From Geothrix edaphica (GTDB lineage: Bacteria; Acidobacteriota; Holophagae; Holophagales; Holophagaceae): a stretch of 64,000 nt of DNA. This document shows positions 39,188 through 49,506 of the stretch, piece after piece. How positions within the stretch are numbered: the first letter of the stretch is position 1; each line of letters opens with the position of its first letter. The translations under genes were made by a program, and so were the position numbers. The notes beneath the pieces were generated by a model. That model did no database searches. It was not told the DNA's origin and saw only the letters and a list, made by a program, of their open reading frames with translations. The stretch lies in the NCBI RefSeq assembly GCF_030268045.1, contig NZ_BSDC01000001.1, positions 1,302,001-1,366,000 on the forward strand. The letters are read 5' to 3'.

Positions 39188-41077
39188 CTACTCCACCAGC
39201 GGCTCCACGTGGTAGGGAATCGAGATCACGATGATCTTGGGCATGAGGAGCAGCGTGCCCTTGATCCTCATGGCGGTCTGGTTGTGCAGCAGGTTCGCCC
39301 ACCAGTGCCCGGTGACGAACTCGGGAAGGATGACCGTGATGGTGTATTCCGGCTCCGCCTGCCGCATGCGCTCCAGCTCGTTCACGATGGGCTCGACCAC
39401 CTTCCGGTAGGGGCTCCGGATGGCCCGAAGGGGAATCCCCTCGCTGTACCTCGGCCAATCCGACCGCAGTTTGTCGAGCATCGCGCTGTCCCGGCCGTGC
39501 TCATCCGTGAAGTCGACGGTCAGCGCCTCGACTTCGCCGTGTTCCGCGATGACCTTCGCGTAGTTCAAGGACTGCACCACGCCGGCATGGATGCCGGACA
39601 CCAGCACGACCACCCGGTTCCGGCGGGGCCCGATAAAATCCACGCGGCTCGCAGCAAGGATCGACTTGATGCGGATGTAGTGCCGGTGGATGTTGAAGAA
39701 GGTCATGACCATCAGGGGCACGAGCACGATCACGATCCAGGCCCCGTGGGCAAACCGCGTCACGGCGATCACCAGCATGACGACGAGCGTGGTCACGGCC
39801 CCCAGCCCGTTGATCAGCGCCTTCACCTGCCAGCCCCTGCCCTTGAGACGGAACCAGCGGCGGACCATGCCGGCCTGGCTGATGGTGAAGCCGAGGAAGA
39901 CTCCCACGGCATAGAGGGGCAGCAGGTGATCTTCCTTCGCGCCGAAGAGCAGCACCAGGAACCCGGCCGCCAGCGACAGGATGAAGATCCCATTGGAGAA
40001 GACCAGGCGATCCCCCTGGCTGGTGAACTGGCGGGGCAGGAACCCGTCCCGGGCATGGAGCGCCGCCAGGCGGGGAAAGTCCGCATAGGCCGTGTTCGCC
40101 GCCAGGACCAGGATGGCCATGGTGAAGCCGGTGGTGGTGAGGTAGACCAGCTTCGCAAAGCCGTGTTCGGCGCCGCCCAGAACGGCCCGGGTGAGCTGGG
40201 AAAGCAGGGTTTCCGAGGCATCCGGGTGGTAGGTGAGGCCGTAGTGATTGGCCAGGTACGTGATGCCGAGGAACATCAGACCCAGGATGATCACCATCGA
40301 GGTCATGGTCTTGGACGCGTTCTTTGACACGGGCTCCTTGAAGGCCGTCACACCATTGCTGATGGCTTCCACGCCCGTGAGGGCCGTGCAGCCCGCGCTG
40401 TAGGCCCGCGCCAGCAGCCAGAGGGCGGCCAGCTTGGTGGTGCCTTCCATGTGGACCGCAGCGGTGTGCACGACCACGGCCTGGCCCGTGGCCACATTCC
40501 AGAAACCCTTGAGCAGGAGGCCCATGATGCAGATCACGAAGCCGTAGGTGGGGATGGAGAAGACCGTCCCGCTCTCCTTCACGCCCCGCAGGTTCATCAG
40601 GGCGATGAATGCGATGAGGCCCTCGGCGAGGAAGATGCGATGGGCCTCAAATCCCGGGAAGGCCGAAACGATGGCCGAGACTCCCGCTGAGACGGACACA
40701 GCCACGGTCAGGATGTAGTCGATCAGCAGGGAGGCCCCGGCGGTCTGGGCAGCGACCTCGCCCAGGTTGTCCTTGGCCACCAGATAGGCGCCGCCACCGC
40801 TGGGGTAGGCGTGGATGGTCTGTCGGTAGCTCACGTTGAGGACCAGCAGCAGGCCCACGATGCCCAGGGCCACCCACCACGACCAGCCAAGCACGCCCGC
40901 GCCGTAGATGGCCACGGCCGCCGTGAGGGGCGCCATGATCTCCTGGGTGGCGTACGCGACCGACGACAGCGCATCCGAACTGAACACCGCCAGGGCGATG
41001 GGGTTGCTGATCTTGGTCTCGTGGCTTTCTTCGCTGGCGAGGCGGCGGCCCAGGAGCAGCGTTCTGTAATTGGGCAT
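39188..41077 (-). CDS. kimA: KimA-type potassium importer (APC superfamily)
   Basis: 629 aa with about 12 membrane helices (residues about 30-470) and a C-terminal cytosolic domain. The N-terminal ISNPIALAVFSSDALSSVAYATQE and SYRQTIHAYPSGGGAYLVAK motifs match the KimA/YdaO-like APC family, whose Bacillus member is a high-affinity K+/H+ symporter. SPYRKVVEPIVNELERM and ILPEFVTGHWWANLLHNQTA are typical of the cytosolic domain. The neighbouring, divergent kdpFABC-DE operon supports a potassium role. A c-di-AMP riboswitch, common upstream of kimA in Firmicutes, is not evident here. The product name is an inference by family; a general amino-acid permease is the alternative. Confidence 0.85.
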   Translation of the reverse strand: MPNYRTLLLGRRLASEESHETKISNPIALAVFSSDALSSVAYATQEIMAPLTAAVAIYGAGVLGWSWWVALGIVGLLLVLNVSYRQTIHAYPSGGGAYLVAKDNLGEVAAQTAGASLLIDYILTVAVSVSAGVSAIVSAFPGFEAHRIFLAEGLIAFIALMNLRGVKESGTVFSIPTYGFVICIMGLLLKGFWNVATGQAVVVHTAAVHMEGTTKLAALWLLARAYSAGCTALTGVEAISNGVTAFKEPVSKNASKTMTSMVIILGLMFLGITYLANHYGLTYHPDASETLLSQLTRAVLGGAEHGFAKLVYLTTTGFTMAILVLAANTAYADFPRLAALHARDGFLPRQFTSQGDRLVFSNGIFILSLAAGFLVLLFGAKEDHLLPLYAVGVFLGFTISQAGMVRRWFRLKGRGWQVKALINGLGAVTTLVVMLVIAVTRFAHGAWIVIVLVPLMVMTFFNIHRHYIRIKSILAASRVDFIGPRRNRVVVLVSGIHAGVVQSLNYAKVIAEHGEVEALTVDFTDEHGRDSAMLDKLRSDWPRYSEGIPLRAIRSPYRKVVEPIVNELERMRQAEPEYTITVILPEFVTGHWWANLLHNQTAMRIKGTLLLMPKIIVISIPYHVEPLVE

Positions 41078-41381
41078 GCCTTGGTTTCCTGGGTTTGTTG
41101 GGCCATCAGGGTTGGGCCAGACAGAGTGACGACACTAACGACCCGGTTGACCAAGGCCGGGCCCAGCCAGCCCATAGAGTGGCCAAATGGGTGTTAAGAA
41201 GGCGTTAGGAATTCAGACCAAACCCCTGGCCTCAACGGCAACTTAACGGATCTGCCCTGACTCCTAACAGCGCCTTAACGCCGGTCGCAACCATGCTGTT
41301 GGACCGGCTGCCCTTCAGAAAGCGGGCAGCCCGACCCATTTCACCCTGTCCGTGCAGGGCGGATCCACCGCAGGAGTCATC
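41078..41381. other. 304-bp divergent regulatory region of kimA and kdp
   Basis: No gene is seen. It contains three operator-like boxes (41193-41279) and two leader hairpins on the kdp side: GGCTGCCC / GGGCAGCC at 41306-41331 and CCCTG / CAGGG at 41344-41359. No convincing -35/-10 pair was found, which fits an activator-dependent promoter. Confidence 0.6.
41193..41279. promoter_or_regulatory. cluster of three 17-bp boxes, candidate KdpE operators
   Basis: Consensus GTTAA-N6-GTTRRG, a tandem half-site with 11-bp period as bound by OmpR/PhoB-type regulators. Box 1 (41193-41209, plus) is GTTAAGAAGGCGTTAGG. Box 2 (41231-41247, minus) reads GTTAAGTTGCCGTTGAG. Box 3 (41263-41279, minus) reads GTTAAGGCGCTGTTAGG. 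Boxes 2 and 3 start 32 bp apart, about three helical turns. The OmpR-family regulator KdpE is encoded downstream, so autoregulation is the simple inference. Confidence 0.55.
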
Positions 41382-41561
41382 GTGCACCTCGTGATGCCTT
41401 GGTTTCTCCCCCTAGCCTCGTTCGCCGCGTGGTTGGGCATCCGAGCCGCGCGCGACCTACGAACCGAGGGAGAAACCGGGCGAAGGAGTGCCTGGTGGAT
41501 GCTGATCCTGATGTTCCTACCCCTCTTCTTCTGGCTGATAGCCCAATTCATATCCGCCTAA
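41382..41561 (+). CDS. small two-helix membrane protein preceding kdpF, 59 aa
   Basis: GTG start, six bases after GGAG. The protein has two hydrophobic segments (MPWFLPLASFAAWLGIRAA and WWMLILMFLPLFFWLIAQFI) with a charged connector (RDLRTEGETGRRS). It ends 11 bp before kdpF in the same direction and so is probably the first gene of the kdp operon. I do not recognise a family. It could be an accessory or regulatory subunit of the Kdp pump or of KdpD. A longer in-frame start exists at 41352 without a ribosome site. Confidence 0.6.
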   Translation: MHLVMPWFLPLASFAAWLGIRAARDLRTEGETGRRSAWWMLILMFLPLFFWLIAQFISA

Positions 41562-41572
41562 GGACACCTTCA

Positions 41573-41665
41573 ATGAACGCTTCCCTTCTCATCGCTTCCA
41601 TGCTGGCTCTGGGTCTCCTGGGTTACCTCTCCTTCGCTCTGCTGCAGCCGGAGAAGTTTCAATGA
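41573..41665 (+). CDS. kdpF: KdpF, small stabilising subunit of the potassium pump
   Basis: 30 aa: one hydrophobic helix (LLIASMLALGLLGYLSFALL) ending in QPEKF, the typical KdpF tail. KdpF is a single-span peptide that stabilises the KdpABC complex. Its stop overlaps the kdpA start by four bases (ATGA), supporting translational coupling. Too short for usual gene callers. Confidence 0.9.
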   Translation: MNASLLIASMLALGLLGYLSFALLQPEKFQ

Positions 41666-43380
41666 GCCACGCCTGGATCCAGAACCTGCTCTACATCGCG
41701 CTACTGCTGGGCTTGGCCTTTCCCCTCGGGCGCTTCATGGCCAAGGTTCTGGAGGGCGAACGCACCTTCCTGCACCCCGTCCTCGGCCATCTGGAGCGCG
41801 GCCTCTACCAGCTCATGGGCGTCCATCCCGAGGATGACATGGGCTGGAAGGCCTACGCCTGGTCCATCACCCTCATCAAACTCCTCGGCCTGGCGGCGGT
41901 GTTCCTCTTGATGAAGACGCAGGCGAATCTGCCCCTCAACCCCGAGCACCAGAGCAACGTGGCGACGGGCCTTTCGCTCAACACGGCCGTGAGCTTCATC
42001 ACCAACACCAACTGGCAGGCCTACGGCGGCGAAACGACGCTGAGCTACCTCACCCAGATGCTCGGCCTCGCGGTGCAGAACTTCATCTCGGCGGCCACGG
42101 GCATCGCGGTGCTGGTGGCCCTCGTGCGCGGCATCATGCGCCGCAGCGCCACGGGCCTGGGCAACGCCTGGGTAGATCTTGTGCGCAGCACCCTTTACAT
42201 CCTCCTACCCCTGTCCTTCGTCTTCGCCCTCTTCCTCGTGTCCCAGGGTGTCATTCAGAACCTGTCGGCCTACATCCACACGGCGGGCGGACAAGTGCTC
42301 GCCATGGGACCAGCGGCCTCCCAGGTCGCCATCAAGATGCTCGGTACCAACGGTGGCGGCTTTTTCGGGGCGAACGGTGCCCATCCCTTCGAAAACAGCT
42401 CGCCGCTCTCGAATTTCGCACAGATGGTGAGCATTCTCCTCATCCCCGCAGCCCTTTGCGTGACCTTCGGTCACATGGTGAAGGACCGCCGCCAGGGCTG
42501 GGCGTTGTTGGCCGCCATGACGGTGATATTCATCGGGGCCCTGGTCGTTTGCACTCAGGCAGAGGTGAAGGGTAACCCGGCCCTCACGCGTCTGGGCGCG
42601 AACCAGGTGGCCAGCCAGATGGCCGGCGCCGAGCAGCCCGGCGGGAACATGGAGGGCAAGGAACTGCGCTTCGGCCCCGGTCCCTCGGCCCTCTGGGCCA
42701 CAGCCACCACGGCGGCCTCCAACGGCTCGGTGAACGCCATGCATGATTCCTTCACGCCTCTGGGCGGCCTGGTGCCCGTATGGCTCATACAGCTGGGCGA
42801 GGTGGTCTTCGGCGGTGTGGGCTCGGGTCTCTACGGCATGCTGATGTTCGCATTGGTGGGCGTCTTCATCGGCGGCCTCATGGTGGGCCGCACGCCGGAA
42901 TACCTGGGCAAGAAGGTGGAAGCCTTCGAGATGAAGATGGCCTCCATCGCCATCCTCCTGCCCTGCGCCGCCGTGTTGATCGGGACGGCCATCTCCGTAC
43001 TCGTTCCAGCGGCGGTGGGCTCCGTGAGCAATCCCGGGCCCCACGGTTTCAGCCAGATCCTCTACGCCTGGAGCAGTGCCTCCAACAACAACGGCAGTGC
43101 CTTCGGCGGCCTCAATGCCAATACACCCTTCTACAACTATGGCCTGGCCCTGGCCATGCTCCTGGGTCGCTTCGGCGTGATCTGGCCCGTGCTGGCCCTC
43201 TCCGGCTCCCTCGTGAAGAAGAAATACACTCCCGAGGGCCTCGGCACCCTGCCCACGCACACACCGCTCTTCATCGGCGTGCTCGTGGGCGTCGTGCTCC
43301 TGGTGGGCGCACTCACGTTCATTCCCGCCCTGGCCCTCGGCCCCATCGCCGAGCACCTGACTTTGAGGAGCCTTCGATGA
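41662..43380 (+). CDS. kdpA: potassium-transporting ATPase subunit KdpA
   Basis: 572 aa, ten or so membrane helices; the K+-selective channel-like subunit. Four pore-loop-like selectivity motifs are visible, for instance [18 protein letters not shown] and [20 protein letters not shown], with later repeats around [11 protein letters not shown] and [11 protein letters not shown]. It picks up K+ from outside and passes it to KdpB. Starts inside the kdpF stop and ends with a four-base overlap with kdpB (ATGA). Confidence 0.96.
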
Positions 43381-45500
43381 GCTCTCGCACGCGGCAGGAC
43401 CTCCCAAAACCCGCGCATGCGCGAGTCGGAACCTATCGTCAGGCCCGACCCCTCTTCGAATCCGCCATCGTGCGGCGCGCGGTGCTGGACGCCTTCCAGA
43501 AGCTGAACCCCCTTCACCAGCTCCGGAACCCGGTGATGTTCACCGTCTGGATCTGCAGTGCCTTCGCCACAGGCCTCTGGATCCAGGCCCTGGCTGGCCA
43601 CGGCGAGGGACGGCCCGGCTTCATCCTGGCCATCTCGCTCTGGCTGTGGTTCACCCTCCTCTTCGCCAACTTCGCCGAGGCCATGGCGGAAGGCCGAGGC
43701 AAGGCCCAGGCGGATTCCCTGCGCCGGTCCAAGCGCGACGTGAAAGCCAAGCGGCTGCTTGGAGCTGACCGACGAGACCTGCACAAAGTTGTCGATGCAC
43801 CGGATCTGCGCATCAACGATCTCGTGCTTGTGGAAGCCGGCGAAACCATTCCCGGGGATGGCGAAGTGGTCGAGGGCGTGGCCTCCGTGAACGAAAGCGC
43901 CATCACCGGCGAAAGCGCGCCCGTCATCCGCGAAAGCGGCGGCGACCGCTCCGCCGTCACCGGGGGCACCCTGGTGCTTTCCGACTGGCTGGTGATCCGC
44001 ATCTCGTCCAATCCCGGCGAGAGTTTCCTGGATCGCATGATCGCCATGGTGGAAGGTGCCAAGCGCCAGAAGACCCCCAACGAGATCGCCCTGGACATCC
44101 TCCTGGCGGGGCTCACCATCATCTTCCTGCTGGCCACGGCCACCCTGTTGCCTTATTCCATCTTCTCCGCCAGGGCGGCCGGACAGGGGCATCCAGTGAC
44201 CCTGACCGTGCTCGTCTCGTTGCTCGTCTGCCTCATTCCCACCACCATCGGCGGCCTGCTCAGCGCCATCGGCATCGCGGGCATGGACCGCATGATCCAG
44301 GCGAATGTCATCGCCACTTCCGGGCGGGCTGTGGAGGCGGCGGGTGACGTGGATGTGCTGTTGCTGGACAAGACCGGCACCATCACCCTGGGCAACCGCC
44401 AGGCCGTGGCCTTCCTGCCCGCTGAGGGAGTGGATCTCCAGCAGCTGGCGGACGCGGCCCAGCTCTCCTCCCTGGCGGACGAAACCCCCGAGGGCCGTAG
44501 CATCGTGGTGCTGGCCAAAGAACAGCACGGCCTCCGCGAGCGCGACCTCCACGCCCTGGACGCCCACTTCGTGCCCTTCACCGCCCAGACCCGCATGAGC
44601 GGCGTGAACCTGGGCGCGCGCCAGATCCGCAAGGGCGCGGCCTCGGCCATCGAGGACTACGTCCAGTCCCACGGCGGCACGTTTCCGGAGGACTTGCGCC
44701 GGACCGTGGACCAAATTTCCATGGCGGGCGGCACTCCGCTCGTGGTGGCCGAAGGACCGCGCGCCCTGGGTGTGATCCAGCTCAAGGACATCGTGAAGGG
44801 CGGCATCAAGGAGCGCTTCGCCGAGCTGCGCGGCATGGGCATCAAGACGGTGATGATCACCGGTGATAATCCCCTTACCGCGGCCGCCATCGCCGCCGAA
44901 GCGGGTGTGGACGACTTCCTGGCCCAGGCCACACCCGAAGCGAAGCTGAAGCTCATCCGAGAGTACCAGGCCGGCGGACGCCTCGTGGCCATGACGGGGG
45001 ACGGCACCAACGATGCGCCAGCCCTGGCCCAGGCTGATGTCGCTGTGGCCATGAACAGCGGCACCCAGGCCGCCAAGGAGGCCGGAAACATGGTGGATCT
45101 CGATTCCAATCCCACGAAGCTCATCGAGATCGTGGAGATCGGCAAGCAGATGCTCATGACCCGCGGATCGCTCACCACCTTCAGCATCGCCAACGACGTG
45201 GCCAAGTACTTCGCCATCCTTCCGGCCGCCTTCGTGGCCACCTACCCGGCCCTGGGCGCGCTGAACGTCATGAGCCTGCACAGCCCCGAAAGCGCCATCC
45301 TCTCGGCCGTGATCTTCAATGCGCTGATCATCGTCGTGCTCATCCCCCTGGCCCTGCGCGGCGTGAATTACCGGCCCGTGGGTGCCGCCCAGCTGCTGCA
45401 GCGCAACCTTCTGATCTACGGCGCCGGCGGTCTGGTGGTGCCCTTCATCGGCATCAAGGCCATCGACTGGCTGCTCGTCGCCCTCCACCTCGCTGCGTAG
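43377..45500 (+). CDS. kdpB: potassium-transporting P-type ATPase subunit KdpB
   Basis: 707 aa P-type ATPase. The phosphorylated Asp lies in [15 protein letters not shown], the actuator loop is [12 protein letters not shown], the nucleotide domain contains [11 protein letters not shown], and the hinge is [25 protein letters not shown] hydrolysis drives K+ uptake through KdpA. I chose ATG at 43377 (GAGGAG eight bases upstream), which overlaps the kdpA stop; the longer open frame upstream is a shadow of kdpA. Confidence 0.96.
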
Positions 45501-45508
45501 GAGACCCC

Positions 45509-46120
45509 ATGAATCTGCAACTTCGCCCTGCCATCGTCTCCTTCATCGCCCTGACCGCCATCACCGGCCTGGCTTATCCACTGCTTGTCACCGGCCTGGC
45601 CCGAACGATCTTCCCCAGGCAGGCCGAAGGCAGCCTCATCCGCAGGGGCGGTCAGGTGATCGGTTCCGAGTGGATCGGTCAGTCCTTCACGGCACCCCGC
45701 GATTTCTGGGGCCGCCCTTCCGCCACTGTCGACGCCAATCGCAGCCCCCTGCCCTACAACGGCGCCAACAGCGGCGGTTCGAACCTGGCGCCCAGCAACC
45801 CGGATCTCCACAAGGTCGTGGCGGAGCGGGTCGCGGCCCTACAGGCCGTCGATCCCGAAACCCTGGGCCCGGTGCCCGTAGATCTGATCACGGCCTCTGG
45901 CAGCGGCCTGGATCCCCACATCAGCCCGGCCTCCGCGTTCTTCCAGGTTCACCGGGTGGCCCTGGCAAGGGGTCTGGACGAGGCCGCGGTGCGCCGCCTG
46001 GTGACCGCGCATGTCGAAGGCCCGCAGTGGGGCGTCCTGGGCGAGCCCCGCGTGAACGTCATGAAGCTCAACCTGGCCCTGGGCGACCAGTTTGGGGCAA
46101 ACCGCCAGAAATCCCGATAG
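45509..46120 (+). CDS. kdpC: potassium-transporting ATPase subunit KdpC
   Basis: 203 aa with one N-terminal membrane helix ([22 protein letters not shown]) and a periplasmic domain. The family motifs [30 protein letters not shown] and [20 protein letters not shown] are present. KdpC raises the affinity of the complex for K+ and nucleotide. Eight bases after kdpB, nine before kdpD. Confidence 0.95.
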
Positions 46121-46129
46121 CGTAGGGGC

Positions 46130-48814
46130 ATGGCTCTCCCACGCCCTGACCCCGACGCCCTGCTCCGCAAGGTCCAGGCAGAGGAGGCCCGGGAGAATCG
46201 GGCGAAGCTCAAGGTCTTTTTCGGCGCGGCCCCCGGCGTCGGCAAGACCTACGCCATGCTTTCCGAGGCCCGGGAGCGGAACGTGGAAGGCGTCGACCTT
46301 GTCGTCGGGGTTGTTGAGACTCACGGCAGGAGTGAGACCGCCGCCCTGACCGAAGGGTTGGAGATCCTGCCACGGAAGGAACTGGCCTACGCCGGCCAGT
46401 TCCTTCCGGAGTTCGACCTGGATGCCGCGCTGGCCCGCCGACCGGGGCTGATTCTCATGGACGAACTGGCCCACACCAACGTGTTGGGCTCTCGCCACGC
46501 CAAGCGCTGGCAGGATGTCATGGAGCTTCTGGACGCGGGCATCAACGTCTACACCACGATGAACGTCCAGCACCTGGAGAGCCTCAAGGACGTCGTCGCG
46601 CAGATCACAGGCGTCACGGTGCGGGAGAACGTCCCGGATACGGTCATGGAGCGGGCGGACGAAGTCGAACTGGTGGACCTGTCCCCCGAGGATCTGCTGG
46701 TCCGGCTCAAGGAGGGCAAAGTCTATCTTCCGGACCAGGCCCGCCATGCCCGCGATCACTTCTTCCGCAAGGGCAACCTGCTCGCCCTTCGGGAACTGGC
46801 CTTGCGCCACACGGCGGAAAACGTCGATGCCCAGATGCGGCGGTACATGGAATCGGAGGGCATCCGGAAGACCTGGGCCGCTGGTGATCGGCTCCTGGTC
46901 TGCGTCGGCCCGGATGGCCTTTCCGAGCGCCTCATCCGCTCGACCCGCCGCATGGCGAGTTCTCTGGGAGCCTCATGGGTCGCCGTCTACGTCGAGTCGC
47001 CCCGGCACTTCAAATTCAACGAAGAAGAGCGGAACCGCGTCGAAGAAAACCTCCGTCTGGCGGAAAAACTGGGAGGGGAGACGGTCGTCATCGAAGGGGG
47101 AGGCAGGACGGACGAAGACATCTTGGCCTTCGCCCAGGACCGCAACATCACCAAGATCGTGGTGGGCAAACCCTCACGGCCCAAATGGGTGGACGTCTTC
47201 GCCGGGTCCCCCGTGGACGATCTCATCCGCCACAGCGGTGACATCGACATCTACGTCATCACGGGCGAGACGACCAAACAGGCGGATCCACCCAATCTCC
47301 GGTCTCGCATCACGAGTCCGCTGCGGAACTACCTGCTCAGCGTCATCACGGTGGCGCTCGCGACGGCCATCGCGGGCCTGATCTTTCGCCGCACCGAACT
47401 GGCGGACATCGTGATGATCTATTTGCTTGGCATTCTCGTCGTGGCCACGCGGTTTGGCCGTGGCCCTTCCCTGCTGGCCTCTTTGTTGAGCGTCGCGGCC
47501 TTCGACTTCATCTTCGTGCCGCCCTACTTCACGTTCGTGGTATCCGATTTCCGCCATGTCGGCACCTTCTCCGTGATGCTCCTGGTGGGGGTGGTCATCG
47601 GAAATCTCACCGAGCGCATCCGGGCCCAGGCCCGCCTGGCGCGGGCCCGGGAACAGCGGACGCAGGTCCTCTTCCGACTGGGGCAGGAACTGGCCCGCAG
47701 CGCGGGGTCCACAGCCCTGGTGGCTTCTGCGATACAAAACGTGGCGACCCAGTTCCAAAGCCATGCGGTGGTGCTGCTTCCGGACGGTTCCGGGCGGCTG
47801 GAGGCGCCTGCCCATCACCTCGCCTTTCCCCTGAACGACCAGGAACGGGGTGTGGCCCAGTGGGTCTTCGAGCATGACGAGCCTGCCGGATTGGGCACGC
47901 TCACGCTTCCGGGAGCCCGCGCCACCTACCTGCCGCTCAAAGGCTCGAAAGGCACCCTCGGCGTGATGGGCGTGCTCCCGGATGACTCCCCCCAATGGGC
48001 GGAACCGGATCAGCGCCAGCTGCTGGAAGCCTTCGCCAACCAGACGGCCCTGGCCCTGGAGCGATCCCTGCTGGCCGAACAAAGCACGGCCGATCGCCGG
48101 CGCGCCGACGAGGAACGCCTGCGGAACGCGCTGCTCAGTTCGGTGTCCCACGATCTACGCACGCCACTCGGCGTCATCACCGGAGCCGTGAGTACGGCCC
48201 TGGAGACCCCCGACATCTCCGACTCGACCCGGCGCGACCTCCTCACCTCGGCCCAGGAGGAAGCCCAGCGGCTGCATCGCCTCGTCAGCAATCTGCTGGA
48301 CATCACGCGCCTCGAGGCCGGAGCCCTGAACTTGCGCACCGAATGGATCCCCGTGGAGGAGGTGGTGGGCGCCGTCCTGAACCGTCGGGAGCTGGCCACC
48401 GAAGCCATGCGCGTCAGGACCCACCTGCCTGAGGATCTCCCCCTCGTGGCCATGGATGCAGTCCTCATGGAGCAGGTGCTGCTGAACCTCATCGACAATG
48501 CGTTGAAATACTCCCCGCCCGGTTCCCCGGTGGACATCAAAGCCTGGGCCGCAGGGAAGTCCCTCACATTCTCGGTCACCGACCAGGGACCGGGGATCGC
48601 ACCTGGTGAGGAAGCACGGATCTTCGAGAAGCTGGCCCGGGGGGAGGCGGGAACCAGCCGCCCTGGCGCCGGGCTGGGTCTGGCCATCTGCAAGGGCATC
48701 GTGACCGCCCACGGAGGCTGGATCCAGGCGGTCAACCACCCCCGGGGCGGGGCCCAGTTCCTCGTCAGCCTGCCTCTGGGCACGCCCCCGCCGATGCCCC
48801 AGGAGGGCGCATGA
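46130..48814 (+). CDS. kdpD: potassium-responsive sensor histidine kinase KdpD
   Basis: 894 aa, canonical KdpD layout. N-terminal KdpD domain with Walker-A-like FFGAAPGVGKTYAMLSEA and the DELAHTN box (residues about 20-230). A UspA-like domain follows (about 245-370), then four membrane helices (about 395-500, DUF4118), a GAF-like segment (about 510-640), HisKA with phospho-acceptor His674 (SSVSHDLRTPLGV), and HATPase with NLIDNALKYSPPGSPV and GAGLGLAICKGIV. It senses low K+ or high ionic strength and phosphorylates KdpE. The stop overlaps the kdpE start by four bases. Confidence 0.96.
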   Translation: MALPRPDPDALLRKVQAEEARENRAKLKVFFGAAPGVGKTYAMLSEARERNVEGVDLVVGVVETHGRSETAALTEGLEILPRKELAYAGQFLPEFDLDAALARRPGLILMDELAHTNVLGSRHAKRWQDVMELLDAGINVYTTMNVQHLESLKDVVAQITGVTVRENVPDTVMERADEVELVDLSPEDLLVRLKEGKVYLPDQARHARDHFFRKGNLLALRELALRHTAENVDAQMRRYMESEGIRKTWAAGDRLLVCVGPDGLSERLIRSTRRMASSLGASWVAVYVESPRHFKFNEEERNRVEENLRLAEKLGGETVVIEGGGRTDEDILAFAQDRNITKIVVGKPSRPKWVDVFAGSPVDDLIRHSGDIDIYVITGETTKQADPPNLRSRITSPLRNYLLSVITVALATAIAGLIFRRTELADIVMIYLLGILVVATRFGRGPSLLASLLSVAAFDFIFVPPYFTFVVSDFRHVGTFSVMLLVGVVIGNLTERIRAQARLARAREQRTQVLFRLGQELARSAGSTALVASAIQNVATQFQSHAVVLLPDGSGRLEAPAHHLAFPLNDQERGVAQWVFEHDEPAGLGTLTLPGARATYLPLKGSKGTLGVMGVLPDDSPQWAEPDQRQLLEAFANQTALALERSLLAEQSTADRRRADEERLRNALLSSVSHDLRTPLGVITGAVSTALETPDISDSTRRDLLTSAQEEAQRLHRLVSNLLDITRLEAGALNLRTEWIPVEEVVGAVLNRRELATEAMRVRTHLPEDLPLVAMDAVLMEQVLLNLIDNALKYSPPGSPVDIKAWAAGKSLTFSVTDQGPGIAPGEEARIFEKLARGEAGTSRPGAGLGLAICKGIVTAHGGWIQAVNHPRGGAQFLVSLPLGTPPPMPQEGA

Positions 48815-49506
48815 CCAGCTCCGCGCCCCAGGTCCTCCTCGTGGAGGACGAGCCGCAGATGCGCCGCTTCCTCCGGGTCGCCCTGGAAGGCGGCGGGTAC
48901 CGGTACCTTGAGGCGGCCACGGGCCAGGAAGGCCTGGCCCTGGCCATCCAGCACCGGCCCGACGTGATCCTGCTCGACCTGGGGCTGCCCGACATGGATG
49001 GCCTCGACCTCATGACCCGCCTCCGGGAGTGGAGCCAGACGCCGGTGATCGTCATCTCCGCGCGGGGCCAGGAAGCGGACAAGATCGGCGCGCTGGATGT
49101 CGGAGCCGATGACTACCTCACCAAGCCCTTCGGCACGGGGGAGCTCCTGGCCCGCATCCGGGTGGCGCTGCGCCACGCCGACCCTGGAGCCGCGGAGGAT
49201 CCGACGTTCGCCCTCGGGCGGTGGCAGGTGGACCTCGCCAGGCGCCAGGTCCTGGTCGCGGGCGAGGAAGTCCACCTGACCCCGCTCGAATACCGGCTCT
49301 TCACCACCCTCATCCGACACGCGGGGAAGGTGGTCACCCACCGGCAGCTCCTGAAGGAGGTCTGGGGCGGTGTCGCCGGGGCCCAGCCGCTCTACCTCCG
49401 GGTCTACATGGCCCAGCTCAGGCACAAGCTCGAGGAGGACCCCTCCCGCCCCCGGTACCTGCAGACGGAACCCGGTGTGGGCTATCGGCTGAAGACCGAA
49501 GACTAG
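48811..49506 (+). CDS. kdpE: kdp operon response regulator KdpE
   Basis: 231 aa. N-terminal receiver with acidic pocket (LLVEDEPQ), phospho-acceptor Asp56 (ILLDLGLPDMDG), Thr/Ser in VIVISARG and Lys in DYLTKPFGTGE. The C-terminal OmpR/PhoB winged helix (about 130-231) contains HLTPLEYRLFTTLIRH and VYMAQLRHKLEEDPSRPRY. Phospho-KdpE should activate kdp; candidate 17-bp direct-repeat boxes lie upstream of the operon. Last gene of kdpFABCDE. Confidence 0.96.
   Translation: MTSSAPQVLLVEDEPQMRRFLRVALEGGGYRYLEAATGQEGLALAIQHRPDVILLDLGLPDMDGLDLMTRLREWSQTPVIVISARGQEADKIGALDVGADDYLTKPFGTGELLARIRVALRHADPGAAEDPTFALGRWQVDLARRQVLVAGEEVHLTPLEYRLFTTLIRHAGKVVTHRQLLKEVWGGVAGAQPLYLRVYMAQLRHKLEEDPSRPRYLQTEPGVGYRLKTED

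Follow-up and report, generated by a model that had tools for sequence, protein, structure and literature searches.

The window, the whole 64,000-nucleotide stretch of Geothrix edaphica (Holophagaceae, Acidobacteriota) DNA analyzed here, harbors two potassium systems that are oriented divergently, namely, kimA on the minus strand and orfX-kdpFABCDE (41382 to 49506) on the plus strand. The kimA gene (39188 to 41077) encodes a KimA-type K+ importer of 629 amino acids that contains the Pfam domain AA_permease_2. It had no match in NCBIfam, and its assignment is based on full-length similarity to the solved KimA (6s3k; phmmer E = 1.6e-135, residues 5 to 624). The divergent gene set starts with orfX (41382 to 41561), which has a GTG start codon and codes for a 59-amino-acid hydrophobic protein without an NCBIfam or Pfam match. 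It is followed by kdpF (41573 to 41665; TIGR02115), kdpA (41662 to 43380; TIGR00680), kdpB (43377 to 45500; TIGR01497), kdpC (45509 to 46120; NF001454 and TIGR00681), and the genes of the two-component system. Among the latter, kdpD (46130 to 48814) encodes a sensor kinase with KdpD, Usp, DUF4118, GAF, HisKA, and HATPase domains, and kdpE (48811 to 49506) encodes the predicted reader of the boxes described below. As claimed in the original prediction, this operon-encoded KdpE is an OmpR/PhoB-type response regulator, with a receiver and a winged-helix domain. The best NCBIfam matches of both products were the expected families, with scores below the respective cut-offs (KdpD NF007793, 941 bits, cut-off of 1123 bits; KdpE NF007820, 283 bits, cut-off of 325 bits). 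A relative of orfX was present in 11 of the 18 other kdpA-bearing genomes mapped and also in genome G036, in which kdpFABC is missing; its product is possibly a Kdp accessory protein. No Rfam family was detected in the window at the gathering threshold, and hence no known c-di-AMP riboswitch, so that this candidate was discarded.

The intergenic region between kimA and orfX contains three exact matches to the pattern GTTAA-N6-GTTRRG, which are box A (41193 to 41209, plus strand), box B (41231 to 41247, minus strand), and box C (41263 to 41279, minus strand). The original prediction had placed three such boxes between the two potassium systems at 41193 to 41279, one on the plus and two on the minus strand, and had described them as tandem half-sites with an 11-bp period; number, positions, strands, and location were all borne out, as was the 11-bp period of the direct repeat in each box. 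In the orientation of the gene that it faces, the box has the consensus CYYAAC-N5-CTTAAC, corresponding to two half-sites 11 bp apart. Box A faces kimA, has the sequence CCTAAC-GCCTT-CTTAAC, and precedes the kimA start codon by 115 bp. Boxes B and C face kdp; the kdp-proximal site is box C (CCTAAC-AGCGC-CTTAAC), and box B (CTCAAC-GGCAA-CTTAAC) is its upstream companion at a distance of 32 bp (start to start). The distribution over both strands reflects the divergent promoters, because each box is antisense to the gene it faces. Each of the two proximal boxes is followed by a putative -10-like element, CACTCT for kimA (41176 to 41181, minus strand), 11 bp after box A, and CATGCT for kdp (41292 to 41297, plus strand), 12 bp after box C.

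To assess the contribution of chance, the genome was scanned for the box pattern, as had been proposed along with the prediction. There were three exact matches in 3.16 Mb, all of them within these 87 bp, whereas the base composition of the window leads to an expectation of approximately 1.15 per 3.16 Mb and 3e-5 per 87 bp, and the reversed pattern had no exact match in the genome. With one mismatch allowed, the window contained 4 matches versus 0.43 expected, a number reached in none of 100 shuffles. In the whole genome, by contrast, there were 11 one-mismatch matches (8 of them elsewhere) versus 31 for the reversed pattern, and the specificity is thus confined to the exact form. The same analysis of 37 Geothrix genomes resulted in 50 exact matches for the box and 49 for the reversed pattern (control columns summed). 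An enrichment in raw counts is therefore unsupported across the genus, and the argument rests on position and exact form, which is what departs from chance: 43 of the 50 exact matches were located at most 700 bp upstream of kdpA, kimA, kdpD, or a porin gene, irrespective of the strand of the box. The other seven were away from these genes; they include a match within a reading frame (G004 C3) and an intergenic match facing the 3' end of its neighbor (G009 C65), both of which look like chance occurrences.

We then used a sequence-only promoter profile, built from 46 promoters, to search 47 genomes of the genus. At E <= 1e-3, it retrieved 56 matches spread over 31 genomes, and 55 of these were at most 700 bp upstream of kdpA, kimA, kdpD, or a porin gene (match strand free); the remaining one precedes a truncated porin gene in G. 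limicola (G061; L271 near 6761). Since 45 of the 56 matches are training sequences that were recovered by construction, and the other 11 include several near-copies of these, the informative result is that there were no matches elsewhere in the genomes. In the genome of the window, boxes A (E = 1.6e-8) and C (E = 3.9e-10), which are themselves training sequences of the profile, were the sole matches at E <= 1.

A gene census of the 47 genomes identified kdpA in 31, a KimA homologue in 44, and a KdpE-like match at E <= 1e-50 in 39, a few of which have a paralogue only. After the removal of 5 partial rows from 92, the kimA set comprised 87 copies, and that of kdpA comprised 32 after 2 C-terminal fragments had been removed from 34. 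All 21 kimA genes with a kdpA or kdpD start within 1.5 kb had a profile match. The box is thus conserved in relatives with a like arrangement, the absence of which the original prediction had named as evidence against it. No match was found at 64 of the 66 other kimA copies, of which 8 had their upstream DNA read directly and the rest were covered by the profile search with filters that lose weak matches; the two exceptions with a match are those of G014, at a contig end, and G004. The 64 box-less copies include five that are 84 to 87% identical to KimA of the window (four confirmed by direct reading), and many are the second gene of a tandem pair and may lack a separate promoter. One genome, G000, contains tandem KimA paralogues (C2:529509-533342, L126) that are ~70% and ~60% identical to KimA of the window and lack a box. 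For kdpA, a match at E <= 1e-3 within 2 kb was observed in 26 of 32 copies, and three further copies (G001, G023, and G027) had a weaker facing match at E <= 0.05; altogether, 6 of the 32 had a weak or degenerate box only. A match in G020 (E = 0.009) faces a porin gene rather than kdpA and was excluded from the kdp count.

The 21 linked kimA genes were grouped by hand, from gene maps, into three arrangements. Nine have the order kimA-boxes-kdpFABCDE, two of them with a porin gene inserted before kdpD. In six others, one of which is split over contigs, kdpFABC has its own box or boxes and is followed by kimA-box-kdpDE. The last six (G003, G016, G021, G022, G029, and G036) consist of kimA-box-kdpDE with no kdpA at E <= 1e-30, an absence that is uncertain given genome completeness values of 84 to 98% and the presence of several metagenome bins. 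The gap left by kdpFABC is visible in G036, where boxes, orfX, and kdpD follow each other directly. Two more genomes depart from these orders: in G004, kimA has retained the box although it lies within a 260-kb contig and is not near kdp, and Geothrix fermentans DSM 14018 (G008) has retained boxes A and C, with no kimA found at the locus. In 12 genomes, kdpDE lies apart from kdpFABC or kdpA was not detected, and in 10 of these we found no box facing kdpDE itself. A conserved AGCCTAGCGCAGC element occurs in the stretch from the kimA box to kdpD in L074, L075, L077 (one mismatch), L081, L085, L087, L089, and L090, in which kdpDE is either remote from kdpFABC or unaccompanied by it; this element may be a separate kdpDE promoter. 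A different arrangement was noted on a 5.2-kb contig of G012 (C23, L114), on which a kdpA homologue with ~50% identity is directly followed by a kdpE homologue, with no kdpBCD between them.

The promoters were compared in an alignment of 49 sequences (48 distinct), namely, 21 kdp, 22 kimA, and 6 of 13 porin promoters. They had been picked by the box columns, and neither the T that precedes the box nor the -10-like element played a part in their selection. The half-site columns were near-invariant, and many neighboring columns were variable. A conserved T was observed immediately 5' of the box. Downstream of it, a CA-type -10-like hexamer with the consensus CAYNCT was found at a distance of 12 bp in 30 of the 49 promoters and at 11 bp in 9, with none at 11 to 12 bp in the other 10. 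The kdp, kimA, and porin promoters have the box and the -10-like element in common and otherwise little. The 32-bp spacing of the kdp box pair recurs in many relatives, and several have the proximal box alone. A normally spaced -35 hexamer would land on the less conserved spacer of the box, from which we infer an activator in place of the -35 element.

The third target in this alignment is a BBP2 porin (PF07642), of which we found 13 copies in 12 of the 47 genomes at E <= 1e-60, and none in the genome of the window at the same threshold. Its position varies: in some Geothrix genomes, it heads the kdp operon, and in others, it lies within the cluster (examples are L117:3844-5196, L125:4018-5379, L121:4833-6212, and L115:9718-11094). 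A lax form of the box (at most 2 of 12 positions off, on the gene strand, within 350 bp) precedes 12 of the 13 copies, against a background of 6 such matches per 64-kb window on both strands, the three boxes included. In four genomes (G002, G023, G032, and G067), no box is present within 650 bp of kdpA; in these, the porin gene heads kdp, and the boxes are upstream of the porin gene. The BBP2 porin of the relatives is thus probably switched on together with kimA and kdp by one regulator, to judge from the shared promoter type. Genome G019 contains, in addition, a gene for a 243-amino-acid protein (L115:8777-9579) that has no Pfam match and appears by eye to be exported. Two boxes, with one and two mismatches, lie 32 bp apart upstream of this gene in the same direction, making it a possible additional target of the box regulator.

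Outside Geothrix, the box was seen at kdp in one other genus of the same family. In this genome, G161, a pair of boxes with a spacing of 31 bp belongs to kdp, and kimA is not linked to it. G161 was the only genome with boxes in a first scan of seven kdpA upstream regions from other genera; a CYTAAC pair with up to two mismatches was absent from the other six. In a second scan of 11 regions (6 kdpA and 5 kdpD), no pair with up to one mismatch was detected, and four regions contained a two-mismatch pair. Among the genomes of this second scan, the family members G143, G201, G344, and G367 have no CYTAAC pair with up to one mismatch upstream of kdp. When run on 13 family members, the profile gave its best value at the kdp genes of G161 (E = 0.0045), all others being weaker. 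In G419, from a further genus, CTTAAC-N5-CTTAAC is located ~100 bp upstream of a kimA gene (E = 0.055), and KdpD is there without a neighboring KdpE. A general linkage of KimA with KdpDE was also considered and was rejected, as inspection by eye of a phylum sample of 396 genomes (E-value cut-offs of 1e-100 and 1e-150; many assemblies fragmented) revealed no KimA near KdpD outside Geothrix. A further arrangement of kdpDE was seen in G344, another genus of the family, where kdpDE without adjacent kdpFABC is divergent from a P-type ATPase gene that appears by eye to be of the heavy-metal type (L212:1638-7703). A similar layout is present in G367 (L211), and G344 also has a complete kdp set (L218).

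Considering these data, the boxes are very probably recognized by the potassium starvation regulator KdpE. The original prediction had suggested that one regulator controls both importers, and it is the comparison of genomes, with a box at each of the linked kimA genes, that speaks for such shared control. KdpE is favored as the reader because kdpDE stays with kimA and the box in the six genomes without detected kdpA, because the 6-5-6 spacing equals that of the Escherichia coli KdpE site (PMC3264566, in the portion available), and because DNA-binding residues are conserved. In E. coli, R193, R200, and T215 are described in the accessible text as important for DNA binding by KdpE (PMC3264566), and all three are conserved in Geothrix KdpE. 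The position of E. coli H190 is occupied by leucine in the aligned Geothrix KdpE proteins and in that of G161, whose kdp is boxed, and by histidine in G201 and G143, whose kdp genes have no clear box. This correspondence amounts to no more than one evolutionary event and is only a hint.

Two alternative explanations deny the boxes a role as protein binding sites. Boxes A and C, which are 53 bp apart, are mutually inverted, with matching half-sites, and could be read as an inverted repeat acting as a hairpin or attenuator. This is extremely unlikely and was discarded because the rearranged genomes G022, G028, G029, G031, and G034 have single boxes with no inverted partner nearby; the lack of any Rfam family in the window argues in the same direction. 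The box might also be a nonfunctional relic of the kdp-kimA intergenic region, kept by linkage and descent, given that boxed kimA genes are mostly beside kdp or kdpDE, which confounds position with descent, and that G. fermentans retains box A with no kimA found at the locus. A relic is hard to reconcile, however, with half-sites that are near-invariant amid many variable columns, with the likeness of kdp, kimA, and porin promoters, which is largely confined to the box and the -10-like element, and with the retention of the box by the unlinked kimA of G004, and we consider it very unlikely.

A different question is which protein reads the boxes. Direct repeats with an 11-bp period are common to the OmpR/PhoB family (pho box; PMC4415409, in the part available), so that another member, such as PhoB or the KdpE paralogue with ~56% identity, could be the reader and KdpE a bystander; moreover, co-inheritance of box and kdpDE alone is no proof of the reader. 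The paralogue and a shorter KdpD-like partner are encoded in many genomes, including that of the window. One such second KdpDE-like pair, in G000 (C3, L116:6778-9359), has a kinase that shows no N-terminal KdpD domain. Six boxed genomes (G006, G024, G008, G060, G025, and G017), on the other hand, have no second KdpE-like match at E <= 1e-50, and the paralogue is hence unlikely as a general reader. The genome of the window has no exact boxes near other genes, and the persistence of the box with kimA and kdpDE in genomes without detected kdpA also argues against another regulator. Taken together, recognition by another family member appears improbable, and we regard it as highly likely that the boxes at kimA and kdp are KdpE operators at which a KdpE dimer over the -35 region would activate both importers.

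Under this model, KdpD would phosphorylate KdpE at low K+, by analogy to the E. coli system, and the two half-sites of CCTAAC-N5-CTTAAC would be occupied by a KdpE dimer in head-to-tail orientation. Since 11 to 12 bp separate the end of the box from CAYNCT, the place of the -35 element falls inside the box; KdpE is therefore predicted to take over the role of the -35 element and to bring in RNA polymerase in the manner of PhoB at pho boxes. Expression of kimA would be driven from box A and that of orfX-kdpFABCDE from box C, with a second KdpE dimer on box B, 32 bp or approximately three helical turns upstream. As kdpDE is part of the kdp operon, the response would feed itself. The same promoter type would drive the BBP2 porin in relatives. 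The boxes, their spacing, the -10-like element, their conservation, and their co-inheritance are direct readings of the genomes; from these we infer KdpE binding, activation, start sites, and the K+ signal.

The Geothrix boxes would represent a variant of the known KdpE regulon. According to the available part of PMC3264566, the E. coli KdpE site, located upstream of kdpFABC, is a pair of 6-bp direct repeats with a 5-bp spacer, and the first two T residues of its AT-rich half-sites (TTTATA/TTTACA) are described as invariant across genera. The Geothrix boxes have the same 6-5-6 direct-repeat geometry and are also upstream of kdpFABC in a genome that encodes KdpE, and both KdpE proteins are of the OmpR/PhoB type with the same tested DNA-binding residues. 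The half-site differs (CYTAAC versus TTTAYA), and the box is thus a KdpE-like site outside the E. coli consensus. Furthermore, the E. coli site is at -72 to -50, off the -35 element, whereas the Geothrix box abuts the -10-like element, and, unlike in E. coli, there are two tandem boxes at kdp and a box also before kimA and the porin gene. The available portion of one study refers to the kdp operon as the sole KdpE target in E. coli and adds adeP, uxaA, and uxaC as direct targets (PMC7657598). The 11-bp head-to-tail repeats are shared with the pho-box promoters, at which a PhoB dimer overlies the -35 region and makes contact with sigma (PMC3348028 and PMC4415409, as far as accessible), but sequence, regulator, and targets differ, and the -35 overlap in Geothrix is deduced from spacing. 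In Bacillus, KimA is controlled by a c-di-AMP riboswitch (PMC11302148 and PMC6488665, in the parts available); control would be at the level of expression in both cases, but by a riboswitch in Bacillus and by a predicted KdpE operator in Geothrix. In the accessible portions of the open-access literature covering both KimA and KdpE, we found no statement on control of kimA by KdpE, and the accessible open-access texts likewise mentioned no KdpE operator associated with kimA or with a porin gene; no open-access literature on Geothrix and kdp together was found.

The role for which KdpDE is best known is the switching of kdp, and here its predicted operators are also at kimA and, in relatives, at an outer membrane porin gene. 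It appears reasonably likely that in Geothrix KdpDE has been rewired from the control of one pump to that of a K+-scavenging regulon spanning both membranes (BBP2 porin, KimA, and KdpFABC), with KdpE replacing the -35 element, and that several species have lost the pump and kept KdpDE as a dedicated KimA activator. The genus offers a series of natural experiments, in which kdpFABC was apparently lost, kimA was lost, kimA became unlinked, or the porin gene came to lie ahead of kdp, and the box follows the promoter. The box consensus can be used to search Geothrix and related organisms for KdpE targets, and the way in which a response regulator gains and keeps its targets becomes testable in this genus.
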